Positions 31,701 through 61,121 of a stretch of 64,000 nt of DNA are shown here, one piece after another. Made by a program: the position numbers and the translations under genes. How positions within the stretch are numbered: position 1 is the first letter of the stretch; each line of letters opens with the position of its first letter. Origin of the DNA: Dysidea avara (taxonomy: Eukaryota > Porifera > Demospongiae > Dictyoceratida > Dysideidae); assembly GCF_963678975.1 (NCBI RefSeq), contig NC_089276.1:25217059-25281058 (forward strand), given 5' to 3'. The notes under the pieces were generated by a model that made no database searches, was not told where the DNA came from, and was given only the letters and a program-made list of their open reading frames with translations.

Positions 31701-33346
31701 CCTCAGCAATCCAAAAGCTCTGGCTCCAACCTATTAACCCAAATACTGTAAGTGTATAAACCCAAACACTGTGAGTGGAACAAGGGAACAACAAATTTTA
31801 ATTTAGAATTTAGCAGTGGGCCAATATGCCATTATGAAGTTAGAAAAACTTTATGTTTAATGTGCTAACTACTTAGAATATTAAACCAATTTCATTACAA
31901 AGAACAAATAGGTAAACTGAATTCCAAAAGTAAACTATCAATTCACATTGTAGCGTGGCGGTGAAGAACATTGAAAAAATAAATTCATAATTTTATATGA
32001 TATTAGAAATAAAGGTAAACTCTTATGTAGCCTTGCACTACTCCAGTCAAGACTATAGTTCTAAATAACTAACATTGTACAGGTACTCTTTAGGTGATGG
32101 CATATAATAAGCAGAATATTTTAGTCTAATATATGTAAGTGTATGTATATTATATATATATACACACCAGAACTATTTATTTTCCAATTGCAAGTATGTG
32201 AAACTCAAGAGGAATAAACAAAAGCCTTTGGTTGCCTTGTTCAAGTGACAATTTACTAATCCAAACTTGAGAATAATTACCAAAGTGAAATAGCAATGCA
32301 GTGATCCCTCCATTAATTATCTGAATTGTTGAAGTGACTGTTCTATTAGAGTATTTTGACTATGTGTGTTCTATTAGACTAATTAAACAGGGCTTGTATA
32401 TAAATGAGTGGGCTTCATCAAATTTCTTATCTAAACACACTCAAGGGTTAATAGAGGGACCACTGTAAATTCTCGTTGTTGGTTGGGTCTGGAATGCATT
32501 TGCAATGATAGTATGAGACGTGCGTAGCCTATATATAAATACACAGTAGTAACCATGTATTATATTTGTACCATATAGGCACATGATATGAAGGATGAGG
32601 TTGTTACCATGAAACTGCTGTCCAAAGTTGCAACAAAACTTGATGTTCCCAAACTAGAACACCTGGCCTGTCATTTGGGAATCAACTCATATGATGCAAT
32701 CAAAGCTGACAACCACCACTATTATGAAAGGTCAATGGCAGTGTTGAAAGAATGGTATGACATGGGTAAAGGTGATATCAGTGATTTGCAACAAGCCCTG
32801 CAAGAAACAGGACATCACAAAGCTGCCCGACTGTAAGTACTATATTTTAGTATTTGATCAGTAAACCGATCCATTGTTGTATGTAGAATACCCACAAAGT
32901 ATGAGTACAGTAGTCAACTCCCACTAAGTTTTCATTCTGGTTTTCCTGCTAATGGAATTTCAATGTCCATGCCACCAACAATTCACCTTCCTTGTGGACA
33001 ACTACCCTTTCGACAGTCTTTTCGCAAGGTACTGTGTATACTTTTATGACACATTGTCTTACATAATTTTTAACAGAAAGCTATCAATACTCCTACAACG
33101 AAAGAATTGACATTGTCAAAAATAGTACAGATGTCATCACGTATTAAAGATGAAAGCAAAGTGATTGTTTTAGCAGTTTTGCTGGGTTATTCAGAACAAG
33201 AATTTTTTGACATGCAGTGTGATTATCACACAACACGTCTACTAGCTCTTCACATGATCACAGAGTGGTGGAAAAAATCTGATGGCACTTTTAGTGAATT
33301 AGCAGAGTTCTTGAAGGCCGTAGGTTTAGGTGACTGCCTTCAATAA
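28732..33346 (+). CDS. Roc-COR GTPase with two C-terminal death domains, paralogue 2
   Basis: Exons 28732-29127, 29180-31747, 32579-32832, 32887-33028 and 33077-33346 join in phase to 1209 residues. Exon number and phases equal those of paralogue 1. The P-loop GLPEAGKT is at residues 190-197, followed by the same WDCGGQ, THGD and COR segments, often identical over long stretches. The Ser/Pro-rich insertion in the Roc domain (with PPPLPPK) and the linker between the death domains differ clearly. Death domain 1 starts near 990 and death domain 2 near 1123. The start ATG again directly follows an AG acceptor (TATAATAG), as in paralogue 1. Two AATAAA signals follow the stop (33414 and 33441). It arose by tandem duplication in the same orientation, 10 kb apart. 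The predicted role is a GTP-dependent death-domain scaffold; the ligand or trigger is unknown. Confidence 0.9.
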
Positions 33347-39982: not shown

Positions 39983-42900
39983 ATGGCTGCGCGCGCCTCG
40001 AGGAGTCAAACTATGAACCTCCAAACGCGTTTTGGTAAGTATGAAATGCGCAAGACAGTATTGTATTAGAATTGTGTCATATCTGTATGTATTCGCCGAG
40101 GTATTCGCAACATATGTTGGTAACTAAGGAGCCACGCCCCTATGGCATAAATAAATTCTCTGTATCTCGCCCACCGCCCTCTGTCAGCACTGAAAAGTTT
40201 GTACATTACTGTATTCTTCCATTAATCTTGCAGGCTCTTCATTCCTGGAGCTTAAAAGTAAAGGTACAAGCTTGCATAGCCGACCTTATTTGTAGCCATT
40301 GATGTGATACATCTTGATTTTCTGCTTGAGGAAGTAAATGCTGTTTATGCTAAAGCAAAAATCACAATATTACCACTCTTGTTTTAGTCTATGTAGCCTT
40401 CTGTTTGTGCATAATATTATGTACATTACTGTAGAAACATTGGCAACCAATCAAATTATGTAGGTCTGCATACATAATTATCACAAGCCGCCTTCAGCAA
40501 ATGTAGCTACATGTGTTGTAAACCGTTTTCTAAAAGCTTAACCATATTTCCTGAAGTATACAACACGCAAGCTAATGTGAAGTACAGTACTAAACACAAT
40601 TTACTCCATTTTGTAAAATTTGCGTTGATATTGTTTTGTGTTTTATAAGGCTAAACTACTTGGCTGCTAGATGTGTTATAGCTACTCTGATCACACATTT
40701 TATGATCTCTTTGCCATAATTATGTAGAAAATGGTGGAGACTACTGTCTCATGATAAGTTAATTGTATAGAATATTGTAATGAAACTGTCTGTGTAGGGA
40801 TTAAGGTTGACCCAAAGGTGAAGTTTGGTGGAGATGGACTTACCTACAAGGCTAGAGTAAGTTGCTTGATCTTGTACATAATAAATTATATGAAATCACA
40901 ATGCAATAATGATACTGCTAATTGTTTATAAGTACAGAGTTTGCTGGTATTCTTTTCTTGCAGACAAGCCGTCACACTTAGCTAGCAAATATAAATTTAT
41001 TGATGCACTTTTAGTTTGTAGGTAGTGAAGAAATAATGGACAAGTCAGGGGATAAGATAGCACAGGCTGCAATAGGAAGGATAAGGGTGAGCACTATTCA
41101 CATATAGCTGATGCAGATGTCAAATTGTATTGCTGCCATACATTACAGGCAGCTTGTCGAGAAGCAGGCGGTACAAAGCCTAAAGTGTTGATCAACCTGT
41201 CCCTCAATGGCATCAAAGTTGCTGATCTGAAGACAAAGGTATGGCTACATACTATAAGAGATTCTGAGGGGTTTAATTAAAACAATTAAGGATATATCAA
41301 TATGCTTTAGAAATTGCCTTTTAAGACTCAACACAGATTTATTGTTCTACAACTAGTAGTTATAACTTCAATGTCCAGATATTTAATTTCAGCAACTTTT
41401 TCTTGCAGGTATGGGCAGTCAGTGTACCAATACCACGACTGACATACGTTGCCAGAGACGCAGAAGATAGCTGTGTATTTTGTATTATCGTTGCACGAAA
41501 GAAAGCCGGATTCAAGTTGCTTGTGTACAAAGCTGATGCAAGAATCGTGAGTGTACCCTCAAAGTTATATGCATGCATCAATTCATACCTGTACTTATTT
41601 AGACGGCTCAAGTAGTACAGTCTGTTAGAGAGCTCTTTCAAGTGGTGTACAAGATGTATCAAGAAAAGAAGAGCAAATCAAAGCCAGCAGAGCCAAAGAC
41701 TACATCAGCCACAACCTTACCAAGGAATAACACATCAAACACTGAGCTTGTAAAGGCCATGTCAGACTCAAAGCTACTAGATGCACCACCACATTATCAT
41801 GATGCTATAGATCGTGAGTGTTTCAAACCTTTATGTACTGTTAAATCATTTCTACCCTCACAGCAACATATACAGAAATTGATTTTCCACCACCTGCAGC
41901 AGGTTAAGTGTTTATTGAAATACATGTATATACAACACTGTCTCCTTCAGGTGGTAAGCAGAGTAATCAGCCAACAGCTGCTGCTACTACACAATCAGAG
42001 GTAAGGATACATCAGAAATGCTACCAATTTAAGCAAATTGTCAATAATCTCATTATATAGAGTAATGATCAAGGGTTTTTGGTTGACTTGGGTTCACCAG
42101 AATATACAGTGAGTGTTGTGAATTGTCCATGGCCATGGTATGATGTATGCTATCCAACAGGAGCAGTCTCCTGAACAGACTCAATGGAGTTATCCGTCAA
42201 AGCAATACCAAGTCCCAACATCAAACAAACCTGCTTTCCCTGTTAACCAGTACCAAGTTTCAACTCCAAACAAGCCAGCCTTTCCTGTACAAACAAATGT
42301 AAGCCATTAGTTATAAAATATTGTACTTTAACTCTAGCTGTCTGTAGAAGGCACAACAAGAATGGAGTGCTTTGGATGCAGAGCTTGCTGACATTGCAAA
42401 GGTAGGGAAATGTTGTCACTGAATACATGGTACGTAGCTTGATATGATGTAGGAGTTGAGCTTGGTTGGCGGCGATATCAGCACTCCTGAACAACCAGTG
42501 CAGCAGCAGCCACAACTACTACGAAAACAGTCCAATATACGGCAATCAGCAACTGACCCATTTACAAATGATTTTTTCAACCAACCATTTACACCTGGAA
42601 ACAATGAATTTGGTCAATTCACTATACAAGATGATAGCATTGTCGAGCTTAGCAGTGCCGATCCATTCTCCTCTCCAGAAAAATCTGCAGTAAATGACGA
42701 ACAGGAGACAACTGATGACCCATTTACGGCTTTTGAGTTTGACAATGCCAACAAAGACAGCACTAACAAAGAAACTACTACAAATGAATTCGATGCATAT
42801 GATGCTTTTGCTTCAATAAGACACAGAGATAGCGCATACATCAGTAGTGCACTTGAACAATCACAATCAAATATTGAAACACCTACAGTGGCTGATCTGA

Positions 42901-43463
42901 TCGAAGACACTGGTCCAGAAAATATCATGCCTCTGGATAATTCTCAACCAGAGTCACCACCAAGTCTCCTATCTACAAGTACAGATCCATTCAGTGCATC
43001 ATTTACCAGTAGTGCAGTGGAGGAAAAGGAAGTATTAAGCTGGACTACTTTTGATGATGGTGTAAAAACATCAGAACCAATATATGCTGTCCCTGATAAA
43101 ACAAAGAAGAAAAAACGCTCCAGTATTGCATCACCAGTAGGTGCATTTGATGAGACATTGAGCTCGGTAAAGTCCACTGATAATCCACCTCCTTCGACTA
43201 CCAAAGTAAGCCAAACTGTGTCACCTTTGCAGCCTCCTCCGAAAAACCGTCGCAGCACAAATAGGAAAAATTCCAGACCCTACACTGTGTATGGTGACAG
43301 TGCACAAGTGAACACAACTCCCAAAGCAAATAAACCATTTGATTTGTCATCCATCAAGCCAAAAGCAGCTACTACCGACCAACTTGAAAACAAAACTAGT
43401 CAAGATCCTTTCATGGACTTATTTCAACGAACTGATGGTAACATGGACACAACATTCTTTTAA
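39983..43463 (+). CDS. Dab-like PTB-domain endocytic adaptor
   Basis: Twelve exons join in phase to 653 residues: 39983-40034, 40798-40856, 41015-41086, 41149-41238, 41409-41546, 41603-41813, 41864-41902, 41951-42000, 42061-42108, 42161-42298, 42348-42401 and 42453-43463. Residues about 25-165 are a PTB domain of the Disabled type (GLTYKARFVGSEEI, GDKIAQ, VLINLSLNGIKV, SVRELFQVVYKM). Such domains bind NPxY tails of receptors and phosphoinositides. The C-terminal half is unstructured and carries five DPF motifs (TDPF, ADPF, DDPF, TDPF, QDPF), the AP-2 alpha-ear ligand, as in Dab2. It also has proline-rich stretches (PPPKNRR). The predicted role is a cargo adaptor for clathrin-mediated endocytosis at the plasma membrane. 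Exon 3 uses the acceptor TTTTAG at 41009-41014; the later AG at 41020 would hit a stop. The Dab call over GULP rests on the block near LFQVVY. Confidence 0.87.
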
Positions 43464-43712
43464 CCACATGGGAAATGGAGTGCATAAATACTGACAGTTA
43501 TAACATTATAGGCTAACACTTAGTATATGTACCACTGTTATGTATTGTGTTTACTTTATGGTTTAAAATATATATTGTGTTGTACTATTACATACATCAA
43601 CATTCCTAGTACAAAACATAGCATTAAAAAGTTTTCACGAAGTGATATAAAACTAATTCGCCACCCAAAATATTGAAAACAAATTATTGAAAACAAGTTG
43701 TGCAACGTTTTA
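43464..43712. other. Tail-to-tail spacer between Dab-like and p85-like genes
   Basis: The 249-bp interval between two convergent stops holds both 3' UTRs. On the minus strand AATAAA (43714-43709) overlaps the p85-like stop codon. On the plus strand ATTAAA lies near 43623. No other gene is present. Confidence 0.5.
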
Positions 43713-46700
43713 TTAGTGTGAACTAGCTTTAACGGGAAATTTCAATGTGGTTGTAAGTAGTGGACTATGCTTGGTTAATTGGTTCTTCGAGTAGTGTACT
43801 ATCATATCTTTCAATGAGTCAAATTCACAGGGTTCAGCAAATCCATATTTCCCGCCTATCTTAAACACCTTCATGTGTTTAATATCTGTGTACCTATAAT
43901 ATTTTAGTATACGTAATTTCAATTTGTTTAATTTTACACACTGTGGTACAACAGTATTCAGTGTGAAACTTACTTGATATCTACTGTGTATACATGATTA
44001 GGGACCTTTGGTCTGTTTGTAGGCCTAACCAAGAATGTTCCATCCTTAGCATTCTTTAGCATGTCAGTTGACATTTCTCTGCATAGGATAAAAGCAACAA
44101 TTGCATGCACGCACATGCACACATACATACACACACTAACACATACATTTTATGATTCAGTACTTTAACAAAGTTATATAATATAAAATTGCCATACCTG
44201 CTAATATCCAAAAACCAATTTTTCTGGTCTAAAAATGCATCTGAACTACTAGTATGCTACAAAAAGGGAAAAAAAACAACTTGTATGAAATATACGTAAA
44301 CATTATTTATGTGAACAGCAGTACATAAATAAAGTAATACACACACTCTCGATTTGTATGATATTATATTTTCAAACATTCTTACATCTTTTTCTTGCTT
44401 GCCCGGACCAAACTGAGCAGAGTTAGATCGTGAAGGAGCACTACCTCCACTAGCTGACTGCGGTCGTGCATGTCGTGGCTGTACAGCAGGAGGACTAGGC
44501 TGTTCTCGTTGTTGTTGTTGTGGTATATGAGGAAGTGGTACTCGGCCCATGTGGATAGGTGATGTCATTGTTGAAGATCCATGTCGAGGTGGAGGTAGGG
44601 GTGGGTTTTCTATTGGTTGAGGTGGCAAACTGCCTCGTCCTCCATCACCTCTTGGACGAACAGCTACCACTGGTGGCATGGCTGAGAATGGCAAAGGTGA
44701 AATTGGTATTGTATCTTCATCATCATCTTCACTAAAAAAAACAAAACAAACAATAGTCTCATACATGTACATGCATGCTACACAAAACTAGCTTTGTATG
44801 TGGCTCAATCACATTTTTATATTCTCAACTTACACTTCATCATCACCAAGTGTATCCATGTTGCCATAAATCTCTCCATAAATGTCTTCTGTTTCTGTGT
44901 AGCTTTTCTCACTGACCTTCTGTGATATCTCTTGTTTGGTCATTCCCATATGTTGTAGAACACTACACAATGGGATACACATGATCATAGAGTACAGCCA
45001 GTACTGATCTCATGATGATGAAATGAAGTCTCACTGAGTGCTAATATACCTCAGTGCACATATGCTATAGTTATATCCTGTTACGAGTGTAATAACAAAG
45101 ATATTGTCTGAGTATACAGGATATAACTATATGAAATCCCAGTGTGCGGGAGTGTGCAGGAGTTTACGGATAGTAAATTAAGTTCCAGTTTGAGTTGACC
45201 GAGTTCCTGTTGCAGTGCTCAAGGTTTTGTCCGAATTATGTAGATTCAACTTCATAGCTACTGGAGAGACTGGCTATACACTGTAGTGAAGGGCTATACA
45301 CTGTAGTGAAGGGCGATTTTACGAAGCATCAGTTCCAGGTATGATTCTCCTTTGTCAGAACTTGGTATAGTAGTGTAGCATGGTGTGCAAGGGATAAAAA
45401 GACCAGCAAGTGGCTATTATTAGTCCTAGATATAAGTATGAAGCTAGAGGTTATTGAAAGAAGTTAGTTCTATCTTCACTATAGTGACCGCTGGGAAGTG
45501 AAAATCGACACTAGACTGTTCTTTGACATTAACTTTGTTGAACTATCACATTGGTAACTTACACTAGTGTTACTCTGTGTAAAGGATTGCTTGTTTTCTT
45601 GTAAGATTTAGAAGGTGTAAGTGCTGTACTGGTGTGTTTTAGCATTAATACTTCCATATTTGGCTCTTTGCTCCATTGGTAAACAATACGATCCGCGGTT
45701 GTTATGACGTCACAAACAAATTTTAGTGGCTCCACCACAGGGTGATAAGTTTTTTAAAATTTATTTATTTATTAAGGCTTTACAACACAAGTGCTGAAGG
45801 TCTGTAGGACACCTGGTCCTACAGCCTGTTTAAAGTTGTTACAGAAAGTGTGTTTGAAAAGGTGGAGAAAGGAGAAAAAAACCCATGACTGGACCTGGGC
45901 AGCCTCGAACCTGCAAGTTAGTTATCACTGGGAGATAACTAACTTATCGTACAGTAGCAGAGTCGCTCTGTCTAGCTGTATGGTAGTTATCGCCCAGCAT
46001 GGCACTCTGACACTCCCACACAATGGGATTTAAATACACACATACACCTCATGTACCTCAGTATACCTCATGTTAATAGTGTACATGCATACATACACAC
46101 AGACAGATACATGGAGTCTAGAACTGGAAGACTGAATAAGAAGCACAGTATTTGGTTACAAGAATCATCTAAGCCGGCATTTGCCATATAATTAAGAAAG
46201 CCATCACCAGAAGACAAAAGTGGTTTCTATATAGAAGCCCTTTTAAAAATACTTAGCCACCTGACCAATTCAAGATTGGCTCTTTTGACACATATCTGTG
46301 CTACATGGGCATGGCTGGCTATTAAGCAGTTAATGTTTTCAAGTACTCAAACTCTTGAACTCCCAAACTGGGGTGTACTCAATCAAACACAGATTGTTTT
46401 AGTCCTAATACACAAGTAAAATACATGCAATGCCAATATATATGGAGCCATTACTCTGTGAGATGTTGTTTTTCTCTTTGTAACTGCATGATCTCTGGCC
46501 GGAGTGTGTTCACCTCACGGTCCAGCTTCCTGTAGCTATTATTGGCCTCATTAAGACTAGCACTCAGTAGCCGAGATGTGTTATCAGCCTCTTCTACCTT
46601 CTGCAATAACCTACTCTTGTTAGCAAGTACCCTATATTAACAAAACATACAGCACTACTGCTATGAATCCTTACATAGTTAACATCAACAGAACACAGTA

Positions 46701-47879
46701 ACACTAATGAGTTGAACTTGTATACACCATTAGGTTTTCATTCATATTGGCTGTATAATAGAGGCTATATACATGGGGTTTTAATACCAGACCATCAGAC
46801 TTTAACAGAATAGTTACAGACGGAAACCAAAGTTAGGTAAAGTAATTCCTAGTGTTGTAACTTCATAACTTTTAAACAAATTTCAATACTTATTCTTAGT
46901 ATCCTATATATGTGATCATTAATATTCTTTACTTCATGAGTTCATGGCAAACAGATTAAGTTTGTGATTTTGCTATATATCAAAGCAATCAAGCAATATC
47001 CAACCCTTGTACACAGCAAGTTACGCATTTGACTCATACTTACGCGTTTTCCTCTCTCTGTGAAAGTCCTGGTAATTGTCTATCTACTATGGCAATCTGT
47101 TCTCTGAGTAGCTCTAGTATGTTATCTTGAGCAATAATTTTGGTGCGAAACTCAGCGATTGCCTGTAGTGTACACAATACATGTTGTATTAGTACAACAT
47201 CAGCTGGATTCCATTATTTGTGGCGCACACATGTGTATGCATGTACACTCGTGTGTGCATGTGTACAAACTTTAGTTGCTTCAGCATATTCTCTCTCTGT
47301 GTTCATGTAGTAATCATTTTTCTCCTCAAATGAAGTAGTCACATCAACCAACTCCTGCAGGATAGTGTCCTGGTTACGGCTTTCTGCAGTCTCTCCTTCC
47401 TCTTCATCCTAAATGAAGCACACCGTGGTTAATACAACACACGATACAACTACACAATACTTACCACAAATCGTGATATAGGACTTAGGAGGTGGGTATT
47501 AACTCTAGGGTTGTATTTGCCTAGTGATGTATGGTGGTAATAGTCTATTAATTCCATCACAGATGAAAATGTGTAGGGCTCAGAAAATCCATATTTGCCA
47601 TTGTTGTGGATGATACGTATAAGTCTGTTCTGGCCACCAATCCTAAAAATATCATATGATAATGTGACCATACATACATATATTCTATTTGCTCGCTTGC
47701 TCGCTCACTCACTCAAAGAGTAAGTGACAAACACATTTCACACATATAGTGTTACCTGACAGTGAGGGTATAGCCCTGACCATCTTGTGAATTACGCACC
47801 AAATATGTTCCATCATTGGTATCCTTTAACTTGGCAGTAACCTCATCTCTAAAAAATCATTATGTCAAAAACATTAACA

Positions 47880-47948
<69 letters not shown>

Positions 47949-50900
47949 CATCCATTACCTCTTAATGTCCCCCCAGTACCAACCACAGTCTTCTAATTTG
48001 GTTGGTTTCTTTTTTTCTAAAATAAGAAACACAATATCAGTCCAGTATGTGTGTAAGTGTGTAGCATATAGAGTAAATGCATGTAAGCCAATACAACATA
48101 AACACAGCTTCTCACTAGAGGATCTAATGGGATCAGCACTGCCTGAATCATGTCCTTCTTGAACTGCTAAACACATACCATATCATTAACTAAACTTTCA
48201 AGTTAAAGGTGACCACTTACATCTCTCTTTCTTCTTCCACGGTCCTTTTCTTAACAACAAATCAATTATACGATTGTGAAACTCAGCATTGGCTACAACT
48301 TGTCTATGAGTTGCATACGTATATCATATACTTGTAGTACTTTATACTCACATAACATCATCTGGCTTTGGCCTAACAAGTGAAGGGCCGAACACAACAG
48401 CCAAATTGTAAGTACCCATCCTAGTTTGTTTCTCAAATCCTGCCACACTAAGTGAAACACAGAAAACATAACACATGTATGAGCTTGCATGAAGGCATGT
48501 GAGATTTTACTCACTGACTACATGTGCATAGAACTTGAAATCATATGACAAGTTTCGCCAGGACAAGTACTAGGAATTTTAAGCTTGATTAAGAAATAAG
48601 TAGTAAAATAAGGGAGGTCATCTACACCTGAAGATATACTAGTGGACATTTAATCCCTAAACCCATGACTGAATTGGGATGTCCACTAGTTATCTTTAAG
48701 TATAGCAATCTCCCTTGTTTCACATTATGACTGGTGAACCCGCACATCCCACATTAGAAGAAAGAATGGTGCCAGGCTTATTGTTTTCATCTGAATGCTC
48801 GTCCCAACTATATATCAATTATTGAAATAGCAAAGTGGCCATCATGCTTTGTTTTCAGTTATGTTCAGCCTGTACGTTCCACAGCATCACAAATAAAGAA
48901 CCCTAGGAGAAGGACCTCTGCAATCAATCCAGTCACAACGGAAAGCCTTCCTGTTACAAGCATAGGAAATTAGCCATCATACAGCACTACTGCAAATCAA
49001 CACCTTGCACTGTCAGCAAAGATAAATGGGACACAAAAGAGGACACAGGCAAGCCAAATAAAGCATGCATCATACGTACTGCGGTATATCAAAAGGCACT
49101 TGTCTGGCTGGAGTGATGTCAAATACAAACCCATAGCATTAGCTGTTATCAAGTTACGCTTGCCGAAGGCATCAGTTAGTCAGTCAGGCAGTCAACATAA
49201 ATACACTTTTTTTTTAAACTTCATTGTAGTACCCTAAAATCTAGTTACTGATAATAATCAATCATAGAAATTTAATGGCATTTTAAGGATTGCTAAAATA
49301 TTACATCTACAGCTGCAGTTGTTTGCATGCATCAGTACACCAACGTACAGACACAGATGAGTCATCAACACTTCCAAGGTGCTTTTGTTAGGAGCTGGTA
49401 ACTGTTCTATCAACTTTAATAGTAGCTTTATACACTGATCCTCGTTTTGGTTAAGTTCTACATAATGAAAAAGATACAAACACACAATGTACAACAAAAA
49501 CATCAGAAAGGTCCACATACACATTTAGCAACATGCGTATGATGCATATGCAGGTAGTATAAGTGTATCATGCAGAGTACTATGTATTGTGAGCGATAGT
49601 AAAATTTTTACTATCATGATAGTTACTCCTTAAATATCGCGATAGTGAATACTATCACAATAGTTTATGAAACACTTTGCTCTTAACAAAGTCTTAGTTG
49701 TATAGCTATGATTTGCAGTCATAAAGAGAGTTATTTTGCATGCACAGGACATTTGTTAATTAACTGCGTGGGCAGCCGATGAGTATGGACTTTTGGTATA
49801 GCTTTTACAGGCCACTCCTTTGTAAGAAAACTGACTGTAAAATAGTTAGTAGGCTTGTTAATGCAGATCTGAATCATCTGAGCTTATCATAACTATTGCA
49901 ATAATCATATCACTACTATTGTTTTCGCGATTTATCACACTATCGATACAATTGCTCAGCCCCATGTACTAGTATATTTTTAAAATGAAGTAGGGATCTC
50001 CAAGTGATAAAAGTAGTGAAATATAATTACGAGATGAATGTTGGTATTACAGCATAGCTCTGCGAGAAAATTCCTACATTGGTATGTTATAATTTTAAAT
50101 ACCACAGTAGGGATTTTCCCACCGAGCTATGCTGTAACCATTATTCATCTCTTGTTTCACTACTTCTTATCGTTTGGATCCATTTATTAATTTTTAAACA
50201 TACTAGCTTGTTTAGGTTTTTTTTTGTCATAGCATACAGTTATACACATGCATAACTTAGTGGTGTGCGATACGATAATAGGGTAAATATCGAAATTTCG
50301 ATTTGATTTTCAATTGTGTGGGTGGAGTAATTGCGTGGGCGGCCGATATTTATAAATATGCTTTAAATACAAGTTACACTCCAAAACTATTGCATAATAA
50401 GCCTAGACAAGCTTTTAAAGTGGCTAGATTGTACAGAATCAACCTTAATTTCTAGCGTGATTATGCAATCACACACTAAAGTGCTGTTGATTTATTGGAA
50501 TATTCTTCAATATTTCGATAATTATCGAAATCTGCTAAAGTGGTATAGAAATCAATACGATAACGATATTGACAAATTATCGCGATATCGATATTTTTGC
50601 GATATATCGCACACCACTAGTATAACTGTTCTATTAGGATGACTACTGTATTAGAGTATCTTGACTCAGTCAATGTTCCATATTTTCATCACGTAACATG
50701 TCTCTAGGATGATTTTTAAAGGTAACATTTTAGGTGGCATGTGTCACTTTAGGGCCGATCCGTACTTAAACAGTACTACCATACTGTTTGACACATAATA
50801 CAAAGTTATTGACTTACTGATAACATCAATGAACTGGGAGTACATGTGATATGTAAACAGTGGTTCGGGTAGCTCCTGAAAATACATCTTGAGACATCCT

Positions 50901-53900
50901 GCAAATAAGTTGACATCAGCCCACTGAGAATCATATACATTGAGGCTTGTTCCCTCTACAGTGACAGATGTATTTTGTAGTAACACTGTTAAGTCGATCC
51001 TCTTTTAGCAAACACTTTTAGATACAATAACAATATGGGCTTTGGTCAAACAGCATAAAAATTTCCTGCAACAATGATTTTACACAAATGTATGGCCAAA
51101 AACTCTTGATTCTGGCCAACATTTCCATTATATAGATACAGAAGTCCCAAAAACACAATTCTACTTAAAGCACCATTCATACAACACAAGAACATTGAGC
51201 ACCTTTATCTAGAGCTTCCTTCAGCAATTTCCGCTGCATATGAGAGGGACTAACACGATATATCCCCTGAGATTGCAGCCCGTGAGTCTCCACAGCTTCA
51301 ATACACTTCAACACTACAGCTGGTGCCAGCATGTCTCCTACTATTGCCGGTGTAAGTTCTTTACCAAATGTACCTATAGCAAGATAGAAAACATTTATTG
51401 TTACATTCAGTGATTTCTGCCTGATAAAGTTAGCTGGCACAGAAATCTGCTTTACATAATTATAGACTTTCAACAAACAGGCATATATAACCCACTAAGT
51501 GAAAACCCAACTTGTTTACATAATTTTTTTACACGCTAATATAACACACAGGTTATCAGTTCAAGTTTACTGTAGGCCACCACTCAGGAATTCCTGGACA
51601 CAACCTTGCACACAATTTTAATCACTTTAGTAAATGAAAGAAGATTGACTCAAATTAAAACATCTAATACATTAATGCATTCACCTCTTCATGGACTGTC
51701 AGAATATCTTTTTGTTTCTGTGCCACAAAGCAAACATAAGTTATGTGTGTTTGTCTACACGCAGTAAAACGTAACTTTTTCTAAGCTTGAACAGCTTGAT
51801 AGCATGGGTTATCTTGATGAATGCCCCAGTTTTATGGTGAACACAAGTCCCAACTCCATAGCCTGTTGCATTTGTGACTTATAATTACATATACCACTTT
51901 AGCATTGCCGTTGGGGTTTAACTCGCATTCTTTCCCAGGCAATATCATGGGAACATGGTTTGCTGATGGCTTTGATTCCCAACCAATTCAAGATACGATA
52001 TGTTTTAACTTTTTATATTGAGCAACATGGAGCATTAAACTGTGGGTTTGGGTTTAACTAAATGTATTAACTTACTTACTGTCCCAATAGCCAAGTTAGT
52101 AGGTTTAATGTAGTACAAAATGGTAAAAACTAAAAATCTAGATCCCACAATCACAATTTTCTGGCTTTGTATGAATGACATACCGTATAACGGGAATGAT
52201 TTGCGGAAGAAAACATTCGCGAATGATCTACTATTTCCTCATTCACGAGAAAATGTTCGTGATTTATTGCATAAAGTAATTTAATTATTGGGCGTGCGCC
52301 TACAACGGATAGAGAACGCTCGACTCTGACATGATGCACACCAGGTAGCCATGCATGATTGCTGCTTCGCTGGAGAAGTAGGCATTCACGATAACGAGTG
52401 TGGGCGATAGGCACACCTAGTCTTGGGGGCGGAACTAAAACCGAGGCTAAGGCACGCCATTCTGGCACAGTGAATCGCTAGTCTTGCGTAGCCAGATCGC
52501 TTTTTTCCATGACACACAAAAAGGAAAAAAGCCATCTGGCTACGCGAGACTAGTAAATCGCTGGGCTGCAATTATATTTGCACCATTTCTCTTGCATGAG
52601 TAGCACTGATTGTTTTTTTTTCACTGTCACTGAAATTTGCATCTCTGTTCGAATGGTCTTACGGTCACGCATATATAGCAGTTTAGCGATTAGAAAGGCG
52701 AGTAGCTACCCGCTTATGTACTCGTTATATAAATGCTGCATCAACTGATTCATTTTAATTGTAGGAAAAATTTAGCAAGAAAATCTTCGTGAATGCATCT
52801 AAAATCGCGAAATTCGCAAACATTTTCTTCCATGAATCATTCCCGTTATACGGTATTCTAAAGGCTATTAGCCCACATTATTAAAACCATTATTGATCAT
52901 CAGACACTGATGTATAAAAGGAACAGGGTGAGTGCTCTGTAGTTCTTTCACCTAACAGGTGAGTGTGCCTAGAGTGATATATCACTTATAACACAACTGC
53001 ATCAGGTTTTGAACTTTTGAACCTTCCTGTGGTCCTCAGGCTTTTGGGTATATATATCAGCAAAATTCCTTTCAGCCGTGATAGGTGCTGTATAAATTGA
53101 TCGTTTTGCTCTTCTTGCTGCCTATTGCTATAACTCCTAAACTATTCGCCGAAACTTTCACAACCCATTGGTTTTTTCCCCTAGACAACAAAGAAGTCAT
53201 AAAATGAAGTTCAAAAAAATTACCAACTAGTTGGGTTTTTGCTCAACTGGTCACATCTGCAGACACGGCTTTAAACAAGATCAAATTTTTTCAGCACATG
53301 TCATAGCCGCTACAATTGAAAATATACACATGACCTATAGACTACACCATACAAATTACCTGCATGTTTAAATGATATAAAGCCAGTACTGTATACTGAA
53401 GTATACACATGACCTATACCTTTCTGTTTCTGTATTGTACTCTCTTTCTTTCTAAATTGTTCACAAGTGGTAATCTCCAGTGAGAGACATGCTCGATGGA
53501 GGTTCATACTGCACACTAAATGATAATTGTAGTGGTTATTACAAAATCTCAACACTTTATGATGTAGGCTGGAATTCCAATACATACACAGTACACAAAG
53601 TAAAGCTTACCTTTACATTTTATTCCTTGTCTACGGAGCCCCCACAGAAATTTTCCACACTTGTCACACCAAGTGGGACCATTGTAACTATGTGTGGCAA
53701 ACCAGTGACCTCCAACTTCAAAATCCTCTGTAATGTGCAGTAATAGCAATAATCATCCACATCACAAAGTCAAAGATAAATAGCATATCAACCTACATAT
53801 CTATTTTTTTGCATTGGTTAAAATCTATACCACCAAATATGGATATGCTAATTGATCTTTCAACAGTACACAAGTACCTGATTTGGCTCCAGCAACAAAT

Positions 53901-56900
53901 TTGGTTACTGAAGAGATACTAAGTAATTTGCTAAATCTCTTTCCTCCAGGTGTGGCATCATCTCGACTATTTCCATCAGGTTCTGCTACTCCTGGTGTTA
54001 CCTACATGAGGATGTAGAAAAGAATAATATAATTAGTGAACAAGTCTAGGAAGATTAATGCTGCTATACTCACTGTTGTTGAATGTCCTGTGCACAGTTC
54101 ATTCAGACACTCCATGACAACATCAACATGGTAACTATCAATGATGCCCATTGCCTAGAGTATTAGAGAAGAAGACATTATGTTAAAAGTGTGGCTGTGT
54201 GCACATGTATGTATGTGAGTATGTGTATAATGCACGCACGCATACGACACGCATACGCACGCATACGCACGCATATGCACTCAAAGCGTAATACTATAGT
54301 GCTGTATATACCTGTAAGGAATCACTATTCAAAGTTTTCAAGTCAGCTCCAGTAACATTTTTCTTAGCAAAGAGTTCATAATATATGTCAATGTTACATG
54401 CTTCCATCCACAATCGTACATCATCACTTGACCATTCCTCATACGACTACATTGATAAGATTACATTAACGTAAGCAGATTATATATTCTTATTACATTA
54501 ATGCAATACTACACAAGTTTACATATTCCTTCATGAGTATTCTAAAAGCTTACAAACAAACATCAAAACCACGGACAAACACACACACACACACATACAC
54601 ATACAAGCATATAATCACTGTATAAATACATTACATGAATGTGAGCATGGTTATCAAAACATTCACAGTACTAGCACATTATTTTAGCCACTGTAAGTAA
54701 TCAGTTTACAAACATACAGTACACAAACAACTTACACTAACAACTTCTGTATATGACTATATAAAAAAGAAATAAAACACATAACATCTGTACACAGAAC
54801 AATTGATTTCATACACTATTGTATGCTTGCTACTCAGTCACTGATTGGAACAGTGCTAAAGAAATCGAAAATTTAATTTTAATTTAATTTTTACCTTGCA
54901 AAGATGCCAAGCCAGTGTATTGCATGTACTTTTGAAGCAACAATTGGGGGTTTCCACACTGCATGCAATCAGTGAAACATAAAACAATTTTGCCATTCCC
55001 AAAAGGCCACTCCAGTATTTTAAAGCAATGTGTTACCCATCAAGGACAGTATTTATTTAAAAACTAAAATTGCTATTTTGCATATGTAGCAATTCAACAA
55101 TGGCATTAATAATTATCAGGTTAGGGAGAAATTGGTGCTGTGGGTCATCCTGATTGGGAGCAGTGATTGCGCAGCTCCATAAAAAATACCCTTATAGTAT
55201 AGTGGCACAACGTAAAAATCGTGTACTTTTTCATAAAACCATGAAACTTTCCAAATAAGTAGTACTCCTCATGACATACTATTTTTTTTTGATATAATGC
55301 TATCACAGATTTGACCTTTATGACCATTTTTTCCTAGAAATTTGTCTTTATCTTCCTGAAGCATTAATTAACTTGTTAAAAAATGGTACAAAAATAAAGT
55401 ATCTTGTTGAACAAAACAACTTAGTTTTTATTGAAGTTAATAGGTGAATTCATTCCAAAGTTATGATCATTTATATTACCCATGAGTTTTGAGATAATTT
55501 ACCTCCCCATAGGTAATTTATACCCCAAGGCTAGGTAAACTCAAAGAATTTTACAGTTAATAAAAGCAATTATAACTTCAAAACGTAAATACCTATTAAC
55601 TTCAAATAAAAGCAAAGTTGTTTCTTTCAACAAGACCTTTACTTTGGTACCATGTTTTAATGTGTCAATTAATGCCTCAGGGAGATAGACAGAAATGACC
55701 AAATTTCCGTGCAAAGGGGGCCACAAAGGTCACTGGCACTATATCAAAACATACATATCACGAGGAGTACTATTTATGTGGAAAGTTTCGTGGTTTTATG
55801 GAAAAGTGCACAATTTGGCTAATTTTGGGGGCTACGCCACTATACTATTAGGTTACATGTGACACTTTCACACCTCAGATCAAAGGAGCCGCCCGGGCTA
55901 CATTTCATAAACTGGGCTACATACGAAATGTAGACTGGGCAGTGATTATATAGACGTTGATGTTGAAATCAATTGTGGGGATTGATCAACACTCATGTGA
56001 TTAGGATGCACGACTTGGATTTTGCTATGAAAAGCACTCAGATGGAGAGCATTTTGTTATCCTCGTCATCCTACGAGTTGAAAAATGTTGGGCTAAGGTG
56101 AAAACTAGTGCTATAACTCTTATTTATTTGATTGTTTCCGCACTTTTTTTAATATGGACACGTCCCCATCACGAAGCTACCACTCTGCATGGAGTAACCA
56201 CTCTACAAGCAAGCTTACCTGTCTAGGCCTTTCGTGAACTGCATAGTTTTCCCATAAATGATTCAATAGCACTGATTAAAACATTAAACTCGCGTAACCG
56301 AAATTCTTTGTGATATCTCTAGGATATGTCCGTTTATCATAACTGAACATAACTAGAATGTACTAGCTGCTGACCCATAATCGAAAATTTTAGGTATACA
56401 TATATAATACATCCAGTGGCTGCACTTGTATTGGCTTGGGTGATTGATTGCCCTGTACAGGCTATCAGCCTAATAAGTGTTACATATTAGCTATAACACG
56501 GGGCATTCGGGCTTTGCCTGATATGTATGCCCTCGGGCAGTCGGGCATACAAATCAGGCTGTCCATGTTACAACTATTACATGTATCACCTTTGATTGTT
56601 TGTGAAAATTCGCGAATAAAAAAATAAATGGAAATCACCTTTTACACATAGTCTTGAAATTTTTGTATCCTTTGAAAATTTTCATCTATAAGGAGCATGC
56701 ACAACTATTTGACAGTGTGTCAGTGTCTACTACAGGAAGTATACAAAATGTGCTTCATCACCAAATAGCTTTTGCATAAAGAGCAGACATCCAATGCAAT
56801 GTGAAATGATGGCTAACAATACAATTAATTATTCAACAGCAAACAGTGGGGCTTTGTCCAATTGTACTCACTGGAAGCAATGATTTAAATTTGGTTGGTG

Positions 56901-58683
56901 ATCAATTCATGGAAATCAATGTAATAATCAATAGCTTGTTTGCCTCCCAAAATCCAAATATGGATAGCAAAAAATTGAATAATTGCACACATTGTTGCTA
57001 CATATATACAAACTATCACCACACAGACACACAGAGAGTTATACACACCCTATCAGCACCATCATCTTCATCCTCATCAGCCTACAGGGTAGCCACATTA
57101 GATAATGTTATTCAATAAATTACTTGTATGAAAACATACTGGGTAAGTGCATGGATACAACACTGTCCATAAATGGAATAACACTATTATATATAGTGTG
57201 GGTTGAGAGGGAAATATGTGTAATAACTAATATAAACATTTCAGGATATAAGAATACTATGAATTATAATTGAAGAGTGTATATAGCTCCTTATGTGGAA
57301 ATGAAAGTATATCTGAATAATATAGATTCTCTAAGAATGCCATGGTTACGCCTGTCATTGCAATTTAATACGTATGTTCAAAAGAGAATGTGAGCTGTGC
57401 AATGTATCCACTCTACAATGACATGTTCGGTCTATATTTTTTTGGTAAATTTTTTGGTAAATTTTAATACACTAGTTTCCTTTTTGTGAGGTTAAAAAAG
57501 CATTGAGTCACACCTGTTGGGACCAAAACATAATGCAGTGAGCTCTTAATATGGAGCATTTGTCAAGGTCTAGAGTAGGCATCTGATCTCATATACATCA
57601 GTAAAGTGTCATAATTCACAATCTTATTGTACAGTAGACACAGTCATGTATGCTTGTCTATTAGTATAATAATAACTCACAGGTTCACATGGGACTGCTG
57701 CCATTAAAGTTCTACATAGCGTGTGACAAATCTTGAAACAATCTAAGCAAACCATAAACCACATAAATTATAGCTATAGAATACTTTGTGTGCTGTTGAA
57801 GTAGCAAATTAAAAATCATCTAGAAAGGAACCTGTGCATTAACTAGGACATTATGAAAAGTCCTGGTATCCTACCATTCCATGTAATTTATTTGCTATAA
57901 AAGTGCTGCTTGTGATGCAAGCACCGTCATTTTAAAGTGCCCACACGAACAGGTTTTACTTGTAACTATAAAATATATTTTCACAAGTATGGTCCACATG
58001 CAGTAAGTAGGTGTGTGTGCAGTGTGCATGCATGTAGCAGGGGCATCAAACAATACTACAATATATTCTGTTGTGTACACAATATAAATGTAATGGCTAC
58101 AACTGACCTAAACAGAAGAGACACTTGACTCCTTGACCCCACAAGAAGTCGCTACCTAACAAAACAATGCAATATGAACCAAGTGATGCATAACAATATC
58201 AACAGTATAACACATTACAGTCAAAGTCTATAGGACATAATACTGCATATAATATTACTTACATGTAACACACTTTACAGGACGGGTGCAATCTTGTTCT
58301 ACTAGATTATGGGTGTGGCCTTTAGGTTCTGTTGACATTGAGTGTCGTGGGGATACAGGGGGTGGATGGTTGGCGTGTGATGTGCGAAGGTGAGGTTCAC
58401 CACGTGCTGGTACTGGAGGTGGACTGGGTCCATTCTGCTCTGTTCTAACTGGTAGAGGTGGAGGCACATCCTCTAGGTCAACCTCCTCTACAAACTCAGT
58501 GTAGTTTCCAGGAAATTCACCTTTCTGCTTTGTTCTTTCACTTTCTCCGCTCACCCAGTTATCCATATCAGGCCACTGGCCATTGGCAGTCTTCCATACT
58601 CGAATAATGTCTCCTTTTTTGAGTGTTAGCTCGGCCGAACTGCGAGCTTCAAATTTATGCTTAGCTCTTTGTCGTCTATACAT
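43713..58683 (-). CDS. PI3K regulatory subunit (p85 type) with added C1 and SAM domains
   Basis: 26 coding exons join in phase to 1118 residues: 58683-58263, 58155-58108, 57742-57681, 57081-57049, 54446-54312, 54154-54074, 54001-53878, 53727-53611, 53515-53441, 51373-51203, 50985-50818, 49457-49349, 48447-48352, 48303-48221, 48166-48116, 48016-47959, 47848-47756, 47642-47465, 47408-47271, 47162-47044, 46631-46455, 44962-44834, 44731-44386, 44256-44198, 44078-43974, 43893-43713. Order: SH3 (9-67), proline-rich (PPPLPVR), C1 (125-173, HX12CX2CX13CX2CX4HX2C), acidic micro-exon, SAM (189-260), C1 (309-358, canonical HX12CX2CX13CX2CX4HX2CX7C), RhoGAP (366-545), nSH2 (about 600-700, YLVR), iSH2 coiled coil (702-885), proline-rich (889-1003), cSH2 (1010-1118, FLVR). 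The iSH2 keeps the Asp and Asn (YRKLDREVNTLRPEI) that in human p85 are D560 and N564 and touch p110. Role: binds and restrains p110 and recruits it to phosphotyrosine; C1 and SAM suggest extra lipid or protein inputs. The start is uncertain: the exon may open at 58765 after an intron, but no in-frame ATG was found upstream of 58683. Confidence 0.9.
45748..46000 (-). mobile_element. tRNA-derived SINE in p85-like intron
   Basis: On the minus strand the head contains a pol III B-box-like GGTTCGAGGCT (near 45904) and an A-box-like region upstream. Then come a body, a hairpin CTGTAGGAC/GTCCTACAG (45802-45810 with 45816-45824), ACCTTCAG and a (AATA)n tail at 45755-45775. A shortened copy lies at 23345-23465. 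Confidence 0.72.
47879..47946. repeat. (AC)n microsatellite filling a short intron
   Basis: About 33 AC dinucleotides, read as (GT)n in the sense of the p85-like gene. They make up most of the 110-bp intron between 47959 and 47848, which splits the nSH2 domain. Confidence 0.95.
48595..49200 (-). repeat. Family A interspersed repeat, copy 7, in p85-like intron
   Basis: Reversed relative to copies 1-6. It includes 'GGGAGGTCATCTACACCTGAAG' and its foldback partner 'CCCTTGTTTCACATTATGACTGG', then the landmarks in reverse order, ending near 'GGCATCAGTTAGTCAGTCAGG'. On the plus strand it reads TVSKDKWDTKEDTGK. Confidence 0.78.
50002..50174. mobile_element. Foldback element in p85-like intron
   Basis: AAGTGATAAAAGTAGTGAAA at the left pairs with inverted TTTCACTACTTCTTATCGTTT at the right, and the pairing continues through 'GAGATGAAT' and 'ACAGCATAGCTC' towards the centre. 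It is a non-coding MITE of about 173 bp. Confidence 0.75.
50258..50619. mobile_element. hAT-like MITE with 8-bp target duplication
   Basis: The TIR TAGTGGTGTGCGATA at 50258-50272 is exactly inverted at 50605-50619. The flanks GCATAACT (50250-50257) and GTATAACT (50620-50627) match at 7 of 8 bases, the size expected for hAT insertion. The interior is rich in CGATA and has no transposase. Confidence 0.8.
52183..52853. mobile_element. MITE with long TIRs and TA target duplication
   Basis: The left end CCGTATAACGGGAATGATT (52183 on) is matched inverted at the right end (52835-52853). The similarity continues for about 42 bp with a few differences. TA flanks both ends, as in Tc1/mariner-type insertion. 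A second foldback is nested inside at 52470-52558 (GCTAGTCTTGCGTAGCCAGA versus TCTGGCTACGCGAGACTAG). Confidence 0.78.
52865..53090. repeat. Family B repeat, reversed copy
   Basis: Matches the reverse complement of 7690-7940 through 'GGCTATTAGCCCAC', 'TTCTTTCACCTAACAGGTGAGTG' and 'TATATATCAGCAAAATTCC'. The GC-rich hairpin core has decayed here. Confidence 0.7.
56478..56575. repeat. Hairpin repeat with GC-rich core
   Basis: TAACACGG...GCCTGATATGTATGCCC pairs with inverted GGGCATACAAATCAGGC...CCATGTTA around 'TCGGGCAGTC'. It resembles family B in plan (palindromic end, GC-rich centre) but not in sequence. Confidence 0.6.
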
Positions 58684-59046
58684 GACTTGGTTCCTCAATG
58701 TGTGCCTTCGAAACGAAGTTTGCTCCAAATAGTTGACTACAACGTACGACGTACTATCTTCACTTCTGCACACGAAAACACCTCACTGAACTTGTCACAT
58801 TAACGCCACCTTACCGTTGTCCCAGGTAGTCTAAAATGTCATGTGCGCCATTTTTACAAAGCTCCGTAAACGGAAGCAACCTACTCTAATAAACGCGCTC
58901 AAACTGACACGTGATTTCCTTTTTTGTAGGCTCGTTTCTCCTAACACACAAATGCATTGTAGCATCAAATACAAATTAAAATATCATCCTAAAAGAACCA
59001 TTATTCAAATGTTAATGTATAGTTCTTGTAGCTAACACCAGGGCCC
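58684..59046. other. 5' region of p85-like gene and 3' flank of calreticulin
   Basis: On the minus strand a possible non-coding first exon ends at the donor at 58815/58814 (CAACG|GTAAGG) and splices to the acceptor at 58766 (CAG|AAGTGAAG). The ATGs near 58861 in that exon are followed at once by an in-frame stop. The calreticulin stop is only about 360 bp upstream of the p85-like ATG, in the same orientation. Confidence 0.5.
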
Positions 59047-61121
59047 CTATAACTCGTCTCTCTGGGCTTCATCATCAGACTCATCATCCTATGAGTAAAC
59101 ACAGAACAGTAACAGATACTCAGTTATACATGGCAATTTGTTATAGAATTATTCTGAATAAAGACCTATCTGGTGGATCTCTCACCTCTTCATAGTCGGT
59201 GTCATCTTCTCCATCATCTTCTTCAAGATCTTCTTCCTCTTCCTCCTCCCCCTCTTCTTCTTCTTGTTCCTTTCTCAGTTTCTCTGCTTCCTCACGAGCT
59301 TTCCTCTCCTCTTCATCTTGCTGTAGTTGTTAACCATTCAGTACAGTATTTCTGAGTTAATATGGACACACACACACCTTTTCTTTCATCTTCTTTTCTC
59401 CATCCTTAGTAACTGAGAAAGTCTCCTCAGCAAATTGGCTTGCTAGGTCTTCATCATCTGTGATCAAAACGTTGTCAAAAATAGTACCAGATTTAACCTG
59501 TAGAGAGGACCCAACACTAACACATTCTTGTTCACCCCAAATATGTAACAACATTTACCTGCCATAAATCAAATCCAATGTAGCCAGAATCTTCATATCT
59601 GTACAGGTTCTCATCAGGGGAATACTCAGGGTTATCAATTTGTGGGTGTACCCATTCTCCCTTGTAATCTGGGTTATCAATCTGACGAGGTTTCCATGCT
59701 CCCTGTAGGAATACAAAATGAGTGAACATTGCTCATTGGAGATGTGAAGTCACCTTGTATTCAGGGTTGGGGATGGATGGGGGTTCCCATTCTCCATCAG
59801 TTTCATCATCCCAATCCTCTGGTTTCTCAGCATCAGGGTCAGCAATGTACTCTGGCTTGTCCCAGTCCTATAAATACATATTGGAAACTGTTGTTTACAA
59901 TAAAATATGTGAAATCTCATACTTCTGGTTTTGTGTCTTCAGGGTCATCCATCTTAGGGCTGTCTACCCAGTCCTCAGGCTTTTTAGCATCAGGGTCATT
60001 GATCTGTTTTGGAGGTAGAAAGTCCCAGTCATCTTCCAAACTGCCGCTCTGTGCTTCCTTGTTGTCAATCTTCACCACATAAGTGTTGTCAGGTCGTACG
60101 ATCAATGTGTACAAGTGAGTAAACTCATCGTCCTGAAAGGTACATCAAATGTGAACTGAACAAGTGTCTAAATGTTGTGTTGGTGGTGTATTAGATGTGG
60201 TACTTGCCTTGCAAGTGATGTCTCTTTTGATCAAAAGATTTTTGTCGTTGTAGTTGAAGATGACATGCACTTTCTTAGTCCCAGGGCCACAAATGTCAGG
60301 TCCTAAAATAAATTCAGGGTTACTATTGACTGAACACACATGCAGCATATGCACTTGTACACTTAAGTGTAGATACCCTTAACATGCAAGAATGTAGAAA
60401 TCAATCCCTGGAACTATTAGATAACAGATAGATAATGCATCACTCACCAAACATGATGTTGTACTTGCTCTCTCCTTCCATTTCAGTTGGTTCTAGTGTG
60501 CTAGGAAAGACCTATGTAAAACAGTAATTATGTCATAAAAACAGAGTGACCACTACTAATCTATAACAACCAAGCACACATCTGTTACTTGCCTTTACAT
60601 ATCCTCCACCACAGTCTATCTTTTGTTCATGCTTAACAGAGAACTGAACGACTAGACTCTTTCCTTCATTGTTGAACACTTCATTGAACTTTGCGGTCCT
60701 GGCGTAGAAATGGGCATCCTGGCTTGTCTGAATTCCTGTAGTGTATATGTAGAGGACTCTCAATATGTTTACACTGTGATAACACACCTTTGTCTTTCTC
60801 TGCATCACCGTAAAACTTTCCAGCTGACAATTTGAATGCTCCATAATCCGACCTTTTCGTGGATTGTACCCATCTGTCCGACCACGCTTCTACAAACAAA
60901 ATAACTTAAGGTTACTCTCCGTCTTTCAGTTCAGTCACACACAATGCAGTGGACACGAATAACACCCAGTGCACTTCCAATTAGACATACAAAATGTCCT
61001 CCATTTTGGGCGACGGCTGGTAGTGATCTAACTTACCGCCATCCTCAAAAGTGTCCTTAAAATAAACAGTAGAGCTGGCCAGGGCCAGGAAACAGGAGAA
61101 CAATACGATCGAGACCTTCAT
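59047..61121 (-). CDS. CALR: Calreticulin
   Basis: Eleven exons join in phase to 417 residues, the usual family length: 61121-61037, 60889-60788, 60735-60593, 60511-60448, 60302-60208, 60132-59923, 59867-59754, 59702-59559, 59497-59378, 59320-59186, 59088-59047. It starts with a signal peptide ([17 protein letters not shown]). The globular lectin domain has the three conserved Cys (DCGGGY, DICGPG, ITCK) and the family signature [14 protein letters not shown]. The P-domain arm has the PEDWD-type and GEWEPP-type repeats. An acidic, calcium-binding tail ends in RDEL, an ER retrieval signal variant of KDEL. The product is the ER-lumen lectin chaperone for monoglucosylated glycoproteins and a calcium buffer. 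Introns after exons 3 and 5 use GC instead of GT donors (AAG|GCAAGT); family alignment requires both. The promoter has an ER-stress element (separate entry). Confidence 0.97.

Follow-up and report, generated by a model that had tools for sequence, protein, structure and literature searches.

A p85-type PI3K regulatory subunit gene with predicted C1 and SAM domains in the sponge Dysidea avara

Gene model and surroundings

The window analysed here, a stretch of 64,000 nucleotides of Dysidea avara DNA, carries a gene for a p85-type PI3K regulatory subunit on its minus strand. We assembled the gene model manually from splice sites and frame, reading the minus strand of 43500-60500. The predicted 27 coding exons run from a start codon at 58683 to a stop codon ending at 43713 and join into a coding sequence of 3369 nt; all of the introns (26/26) are GT-AG, and an in-frame stop is located at 58785, upstream of the start codon.

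43713..58683, minus strand: p85-type PI3K regulatory subunit gene; 27 coding exons, 1122 a.a., single open frame with GT-AG introns
58683-58263, 58155-58108, 57742-57681, 57081-57049, 54756-54736, 54446-54312, 54154-54074, 54001-53878, 53727-53611, minus strand: exons 1-9
53515-53420, 51373-51203, 50955-50818, 49457-49349, 48447-48352, 48303-48221, 48166-48116, 48016-47959, 47848-47756, minus strand: exons 10-18
47642-47465, 47408-47271, 47162-47044, 46631-46455, 44962-44834, 44731-44386, 44256-44198, 44078-43974, 43893-43713, minus strand: exons 19-27

The first-pass annotation had placed 26 in-frame exons here; its end points and single frame were borne out, and the exon number was corrected to 27. 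Since the exon boundaries were picked by hand, the open frame by itself is not independent proof of the model. Fourteen of the 26 splice junctions lie within a domain match (Pfam ranges, with the range of the last SH2 taken from the p85-alpha alignment), and homology extends across 17 once an alignment to a chimaerin and another to p85-alpha are included. At the other nine (3/4, 4/5, 5/6, 7/8, 8/9, 15/16, 16/17, 23/24 and 24/25), which lack homology support, phase and splice consensus were the sole guides, and the first five of these flank the SAM exons. Exons 4 (11 a.a.) and 5 (7 a.a.) have phase 0 at both ends, and skipping or mis-calling them would leave the domain order intact. Intron 17 carries a CA/GT dinucleotide run (~47885-47946) right after the exon 17 donor.

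The following neighbouring features were observed in the window.

59047-60500, minus strand: calreticulin-like gene (repeats, acidic tail; named by eye), ending ~360 bp upstream of the p85 start codon, on the same strand
42453-43463, plus strand: 336-a.a. open frame, convergent with the p85 gene, with several DPF tripeptides
14730-17369 and 29132-31759, plus strand: pair of similar long open frames, each with Roc and COR-A domains (COR-A 47.9 and 50.5 bits)

The Roc and COR-A frames are apparently a local duplicate pair of a Roc-COR GTPase gene. The 336-a.a. frame had no Pfam match at E ≤ 0.01; DPF tripeptides occur in endocytic adaptors. A scan of 51000-53500 for bacterial-type signals (8 promoter-like sites versus 8.0 expected; 4 terminator-like sites versus 1.5) was discarded, as such signals are not meaningful in an animal.

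N-terminal modules and the RhoGAP domain

The Pfam profile check recovered the domain order proposed initially, SH3-C1-SAM-C1-RhoGAP-SH2-iSH2-SH2, in the predicted 1122-a.a. protein. All of the families exceeded their cut-offs for the whole protein: RhoGAP (PF00620) scored 148 bits, iSH2 (PF16454) 70.8 bits (cut-off 31.5), SH3_9 32.9 bits and SAM_1 26.7 bits, while the scores summed over two stretches each were 88 bits for SH2 and 61.6 bits for C1.

58495..58668, minus strand: SH3 domain, a.a. 6-63, exon 1; Pfam SH3_9 38.9 bits as an isolated piece
57684..58317, minus strand: first C1 domain, atypical, a.a. 123-176 (Pfam match a.a. 125-171), exons 1-3; Pfam C1_1
54104..54443, minus strand: SAM domain, a.a. 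~197-257 (Pfam SAM_2 match a.a. 197-255), exons 6-7
53460..53707, minus strand: second C1 domain, typical, a.a. 316-366, exons 9-10; Pfam C1_1
48366..51323, minus strand: RhoGAP domain, a.a. 397-546, exons 11-14; Pfam 148 bits; upstream of the N-terminal SH2 (nSH2)

The top whole-sequence match of the SH3 domain was SORBS1 (E 3.2e-8), to which two SH3 copies contribute, followed by the p85-beta SH3 (E 1.5e-6). The order was reversed for the best single domain (p85-beta 29.9 bits, SORBS1 22.6 bits), and the pattern ERT.Q.G.FPG.Y.EF is common to the p85-beta SH3 and the one found here. The SAM domain, which as an isolated piece scored 32.4 bits with SAM_1 and 31.8 bits with SAM_2, matched the neurabin-1 SAM (E 1.8e-5).

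The two C1 domains differ in how closely they resemble lipid-binding C1 domains. The first, as an isolated piece, scored 25.9 bits with C1_1, slightly below the cut-off of 26.5 (E 8.8e-6). Among solved structures, Unc-13 homolog A (Munc13-1) provided its best C1 match (E 1.7e-5), and gap-free alignments were obtained with this C1 and with those of RasGRP1 and PKC-gamma. Eight zinc-ligand candidates are present (H125, C138, C141, C155, C158, H163, C166, C175), with a final gap of X8, not X7; P135 and G147 of the lipid site are kept and K151 replaces the glutamine. The domain thus departs from a typical DAG-binding C1 in the final ligand spacing and the glutamine. The second C1 matched PKC-beta (E 4.8e-23, both C1 copies combined), PKC-delta (E 9.7e-17) and also PKC-theta. 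It has all eight zinc ligands (H316, C329, C332, C346, C349, H354, C357, C365) in the canonical spacing H-X12-C-X2-C-X13-C-X2-C-X4-H-X2-C-X7-C, and retains P326, W337, G338 and Q342, positions that we take to form the DAG/lipid site of C1, just as we assume the eight-ligand rule; its sequence is that of a typical DAG-binding C1. Recruitment by diacylglycerol (DAG) or phorbol ester, as suggested in the first-pass annotation, is therefore plausible through the second C1, where the lipid-site residues are kept, and weak through the first, because its glutamine position is occupied by lysine.

We considered whether neither C1 is a lipid sensor, so that C1 and SAM would serve as protein-protein modules in a gene that works like vertebrate p85. 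The glutamine-less first C1 would fit such a role, and passages of PMC8258685 describe certain highly similar C1 domains that do not bind lipid, as well as C1 domains that serve protein contacts. The second C1, however, has the DAG-site residues Pro, Gly and Gln in place and resembles the C1 domains of PKCs and chimaerins, and we regard this reading as unlikely.

A single beta2-chimaerin alignment runs continuously from the second C1 through the RhoGAP domain (E 6.7e-48), with linker gaps of 6 residues on the chimaerin side and 1 residue here, confirming the chimaerin likeness of the C1-RhoGAP unit that had been pointed out earlier. In the RhoGAP domain, identity was 39.4% to ARHGAP12, 38.7% to ARHGAP15, 35.3 and 34.1% to the chimaerins and 27.1% to human p85-alpha. 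This greater likeness to ARHGAP12/15 and the chimaerins, like the SORBS1 match of the SH3, weighs against the p85 reading favoured below. Taking R85 (the Arg finger), K122, R126 and N194 of p50RhoGAP as the catalytic positions, we found the arginine finger (R419), K459 and N533 kept, and Q463 at the R126 position. The same four positions are R, K, L, V in human p85-alpha, R, K, R, N in the chimaerins, and R, K, R, S in ARHGAP12 and ARHGAP15. GAP activity of the domain is uncertain, because the R126 position carries Q.

The p85 core

Among solved structures, human p85-alpha was the best match of the SH2-iSH2-SH2 half (E 4.8e-58).

47537..47981, minus strand: nSH2 domain, a.a. 608-681, exons 17-19; Pfam and p85-alpha alignment; FLVR-type arginine R633
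44920..47402, minus strand: inter-SH2 (iSH2) p110-binding coiled coil, a.a. 708-864, exons 20-23; PF16454 70.8 bits
44866..44880, minus strand: Y878 and Y882 in YGEIYGNM (YxxM); p85-alpha alignment; near the position of human Tyr607
43722..44232, minus strand: C-terminal SH2 (cSH2) domain, a.a. 1017-1120, exons 25-27; range from the p85-alpha alignment; R1046

The p110-contact residues of human p85, D560 and N564, have their counterparts in D828 and N832. The iSH2 between two SH2 domains, the RhoGAP upstream of nSH2 and the D560/N564 equivalents mark the predicted protein as a class IA regulatory subunit; the iSH2 and the second SH2 separate it from the chimaerin plan (SH2-C1-RhoGAP, no iSH2).

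The linker between iSH2 and cSH2 contains EDIYGEIYGNM, in which Y878 falls about at human Tyr607. YxxM is the motif recognised by p85 SH2 domains. The predicted protein contains one YxxM, versus 0.79 expected from its composition, which is not significant alone. When phosphorylated, Tyr607 of human p85 binds the nSH2 of another p85, according to passages of PMC7458397. The position of YGNM hints at a possible self-docking site, which we treat as a lead only, because a single YxxM is close to the expectation from composition.

Copy number, p110 candidates and a partial duplicate

An exon-by-exon iSH2 search of the assembly (550.8 Mb, 108 contigs), in which the best candidates were scored (9/9), produced one match at E ≤ 0.001, at this locus; no second p85 gene was found at that threshold by this procedure, which might miss a divergent one. 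The same search in 14 control genomes gave one match, below the cut-off. For the p85-binding domain (PF02192), two loci in the assembly were above the cut-off (E 2.9e-21 and 4.9e-20), one of which also encodes a Ras-binding domain in frame. Both are candidate p110 partners, as judged from their N-terminal domains. Passages of PMC4617754 state one regulatory and two catalytic class IA subunits for Mollusca and Annelida, and we counted the match of the present set, one regulatory and two catalytic loci, for class IA orthology.

Contig C9 (11992725-12002000) carries a duplicate with a calreticulin-like 3' end, separated by ~4.9 kb of extra sequence from exon 1, and p85 exons 1-3 and 7b-10; exons 4-6, the first part of exon 7 and the exons past intron 10 had no match there. 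Relative to the main gene, we counted 10 synonymous and 15 non-synonymous codon differences in exons 1, 3, 8, 9 and 10, a count that leaves out intron-split codons, exon 2 and part of exon 7. Divergence in exon versus non-exon sequence was 4.1 versus 5.8% in one block and 1.9 versus 3.0% in the other. The C9 copy appears to be a segmental duplicate of part of the locus, with little constraint on it, and tells little about the main gene.

The absence of any recognisable exon past intron 10 in the C9 copy, together with the length of that intron (2046 bp), would suit a model in which two adjacent genes were wrongly joined across it; exons 1-10 would then form an SH3-C1-SAM-C1 adaptor and exons 11-27 a shorter p85 (RhoGAP-SH2-iSH2-SH2). 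However, junction 10/11 is phase-matched and lies inside the continuous chimaerin alignment, the p85 plan itself has an SH3 upstream of RhoGAP, and other animals have C1 and SAM N-terminal to rhoGAP according to PMC4617754 and PMC12817958. A single gene is also supported by exon 1 (58683-58263), shared by the SH3 and the beginning of the first C1, and by one human p85-alpha alignment that spans nSH2 to iSH2. We consider the two-gene model very unlikely and treat the locus as one gene.

Discussion

C1 and SAM domains in p85-type proteins have precedents. According to Philippon 2015 (PMC4617754), an N-terminal C1 occurs in class IA regulatory copies from Mollusca, Cnidaria and Ichthyosporea, and a SAM in copies from Mollusca, Arthropoda and Choanoflagellida; a 2025 paper (PMC12817958) reports two C1 domains and a SAM in a shrimp p85. 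The C1 and SAM module set is thus already known, and the suggested novelty does not hold; the gene is nothing new in kind, because its modules were already reported in other invertebrates. The first-pass annotation had stated that an architecture already common in bilaterian p85 proteins would count against its proposal, and for the module set this is largely so. The available text of PMC4617754 and PMC12817958 names no sponge regulatory subunit, and that of PMC4617754 has one passage on Amphimedon, concerning catalytic class IB. Among the papers listed in a literature search, none pointed by title or beginning of abstract to a sponge p85 with C1 and SAM, which does not prove absence. The present gene extends the list by one animal, retains an SH3 and shows its modules in an explicit order, in which the two C1 domains enclose the SAM.

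The origin of these modules had been left between an ancestral plan and a sponge-specific gain. An ancestral layout, reduced in vertebrates, is the most likely, because in print the modules are spread over several distant groups (molluscs, arthropods, cnidarians and protist relatives); a sponge-specific gain is disfavoured. Shuffled modules are often bounded by the same intron phase on both sides, and here both ends have phase 0 for the SAM exons 6-7 and phase 1 for the C1 exons 9-10, as would be expected if C1 and SAM had been shuffled by exons into a vertebrate-like p85 in this lineage. Such a gain appears highly improbable, since C1 and SAM domains are described for class IA regulatory subunits across several distant groups, unicellular relatives among them (PMC4617754), and two C1 domains with a SAM for the shrimp p85 (PMC12817958).

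Taken together, the gene is probably a p85 orthologue, the sole one found in the assembly, that keeps old C1 and SAM modules lost in vertebrates and would act in a two-signal complex responsive to phosphotyrosine and DAG. Judging from the predicted domains, it would likely function as a p85 adaptor that carries, next to RhoGAP, an additional anchor for sensing DAG. Tyrosine-phosphorylated receptors or adaptors would bind the SH2 domains, relieving p110, and nearby DAG, for example from PLC-gamma, would be bound by the second C1, which might then keep RhoGAP and the PI3K complex at one membrane patch, as in chimaerins. As a zinc module, the first C1 may have a structural role or bind proteins, and oligomerisation or a partner may come with the SAM. 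The two coincident membrane signals would drive the response of the PI3K complex, and Rac/Cdc42 could be turned down locally during PIP3 production. With SH2 reading phosphotyrosine and C1 reading DAG, PI3K and Rac would become the meeting point of receptor and PLC signals. More tentatively, and with rather less chance than not of being right in full, the PI3K adaptor of the first animals may have been a two-input switch (phosphotyrosine via SH2, DAG via a chimaerin-like C1-RhoGAP) that coupled PLC, Rac and PI3K and was dimer-locked through the YxxM tail near the human Tyr607 position, with vertebrates having removed the lipid and SAM inputs.

A working C1 would mean that DAG could directly recruit PI3K in Dysidea avara and perhaps in other invertebrates, a link that could not show in mammalian p85, because the module is absent there. 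The gene fits a view of vertebrate p85 as a trimmed form. Weak GAP activity is reported for human p85 in passages of PMC7458397, and the better kept RhoGAP residues found here suggest that this activity may be a decayed function.

Comparison with known systems

A close likeness exists to class IA regulatory subunits known from invertebrates and from holozoan protists, which, according to passages of PMC4617754, combine RhoGAP and SH2 with N-terminal C1 and/or SAM, as here, where a C1 lies upstream of RhoGAP and a SAM is present. The shrimp p85 shares the two C1 domains and the SAM, which is described as N-terminal in PMC12817958. Unlike the description of those proteins, for which the available published text gives no full order, the present one also has an SH3 and places the SAM between the C1 domains.

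Vertebrate p85-alpha and p85-beta have in common with this protein the SH3, proline motifs, RhoGAP, nSH2, iSH2 and cSH2, as well as D560/N564 and the SH2 arginines. They lack the C1 and SAM that Pfam detects here, and the contrast drawn at the outset is thereby upheld. In human p85-alpha, the RhoGAP residues at the N194 and R126 positions are V and L, whereas N and Q are found here, and the iSH2-cSH2 linker, short in p85-alpha, is ~150 residues long in the present protein. Chimaerins share the typical C1 closely followed by RhoGAP; built as SH2-C1-RhoGAP, they have one SH2, no iSH2 and no p110 binding.
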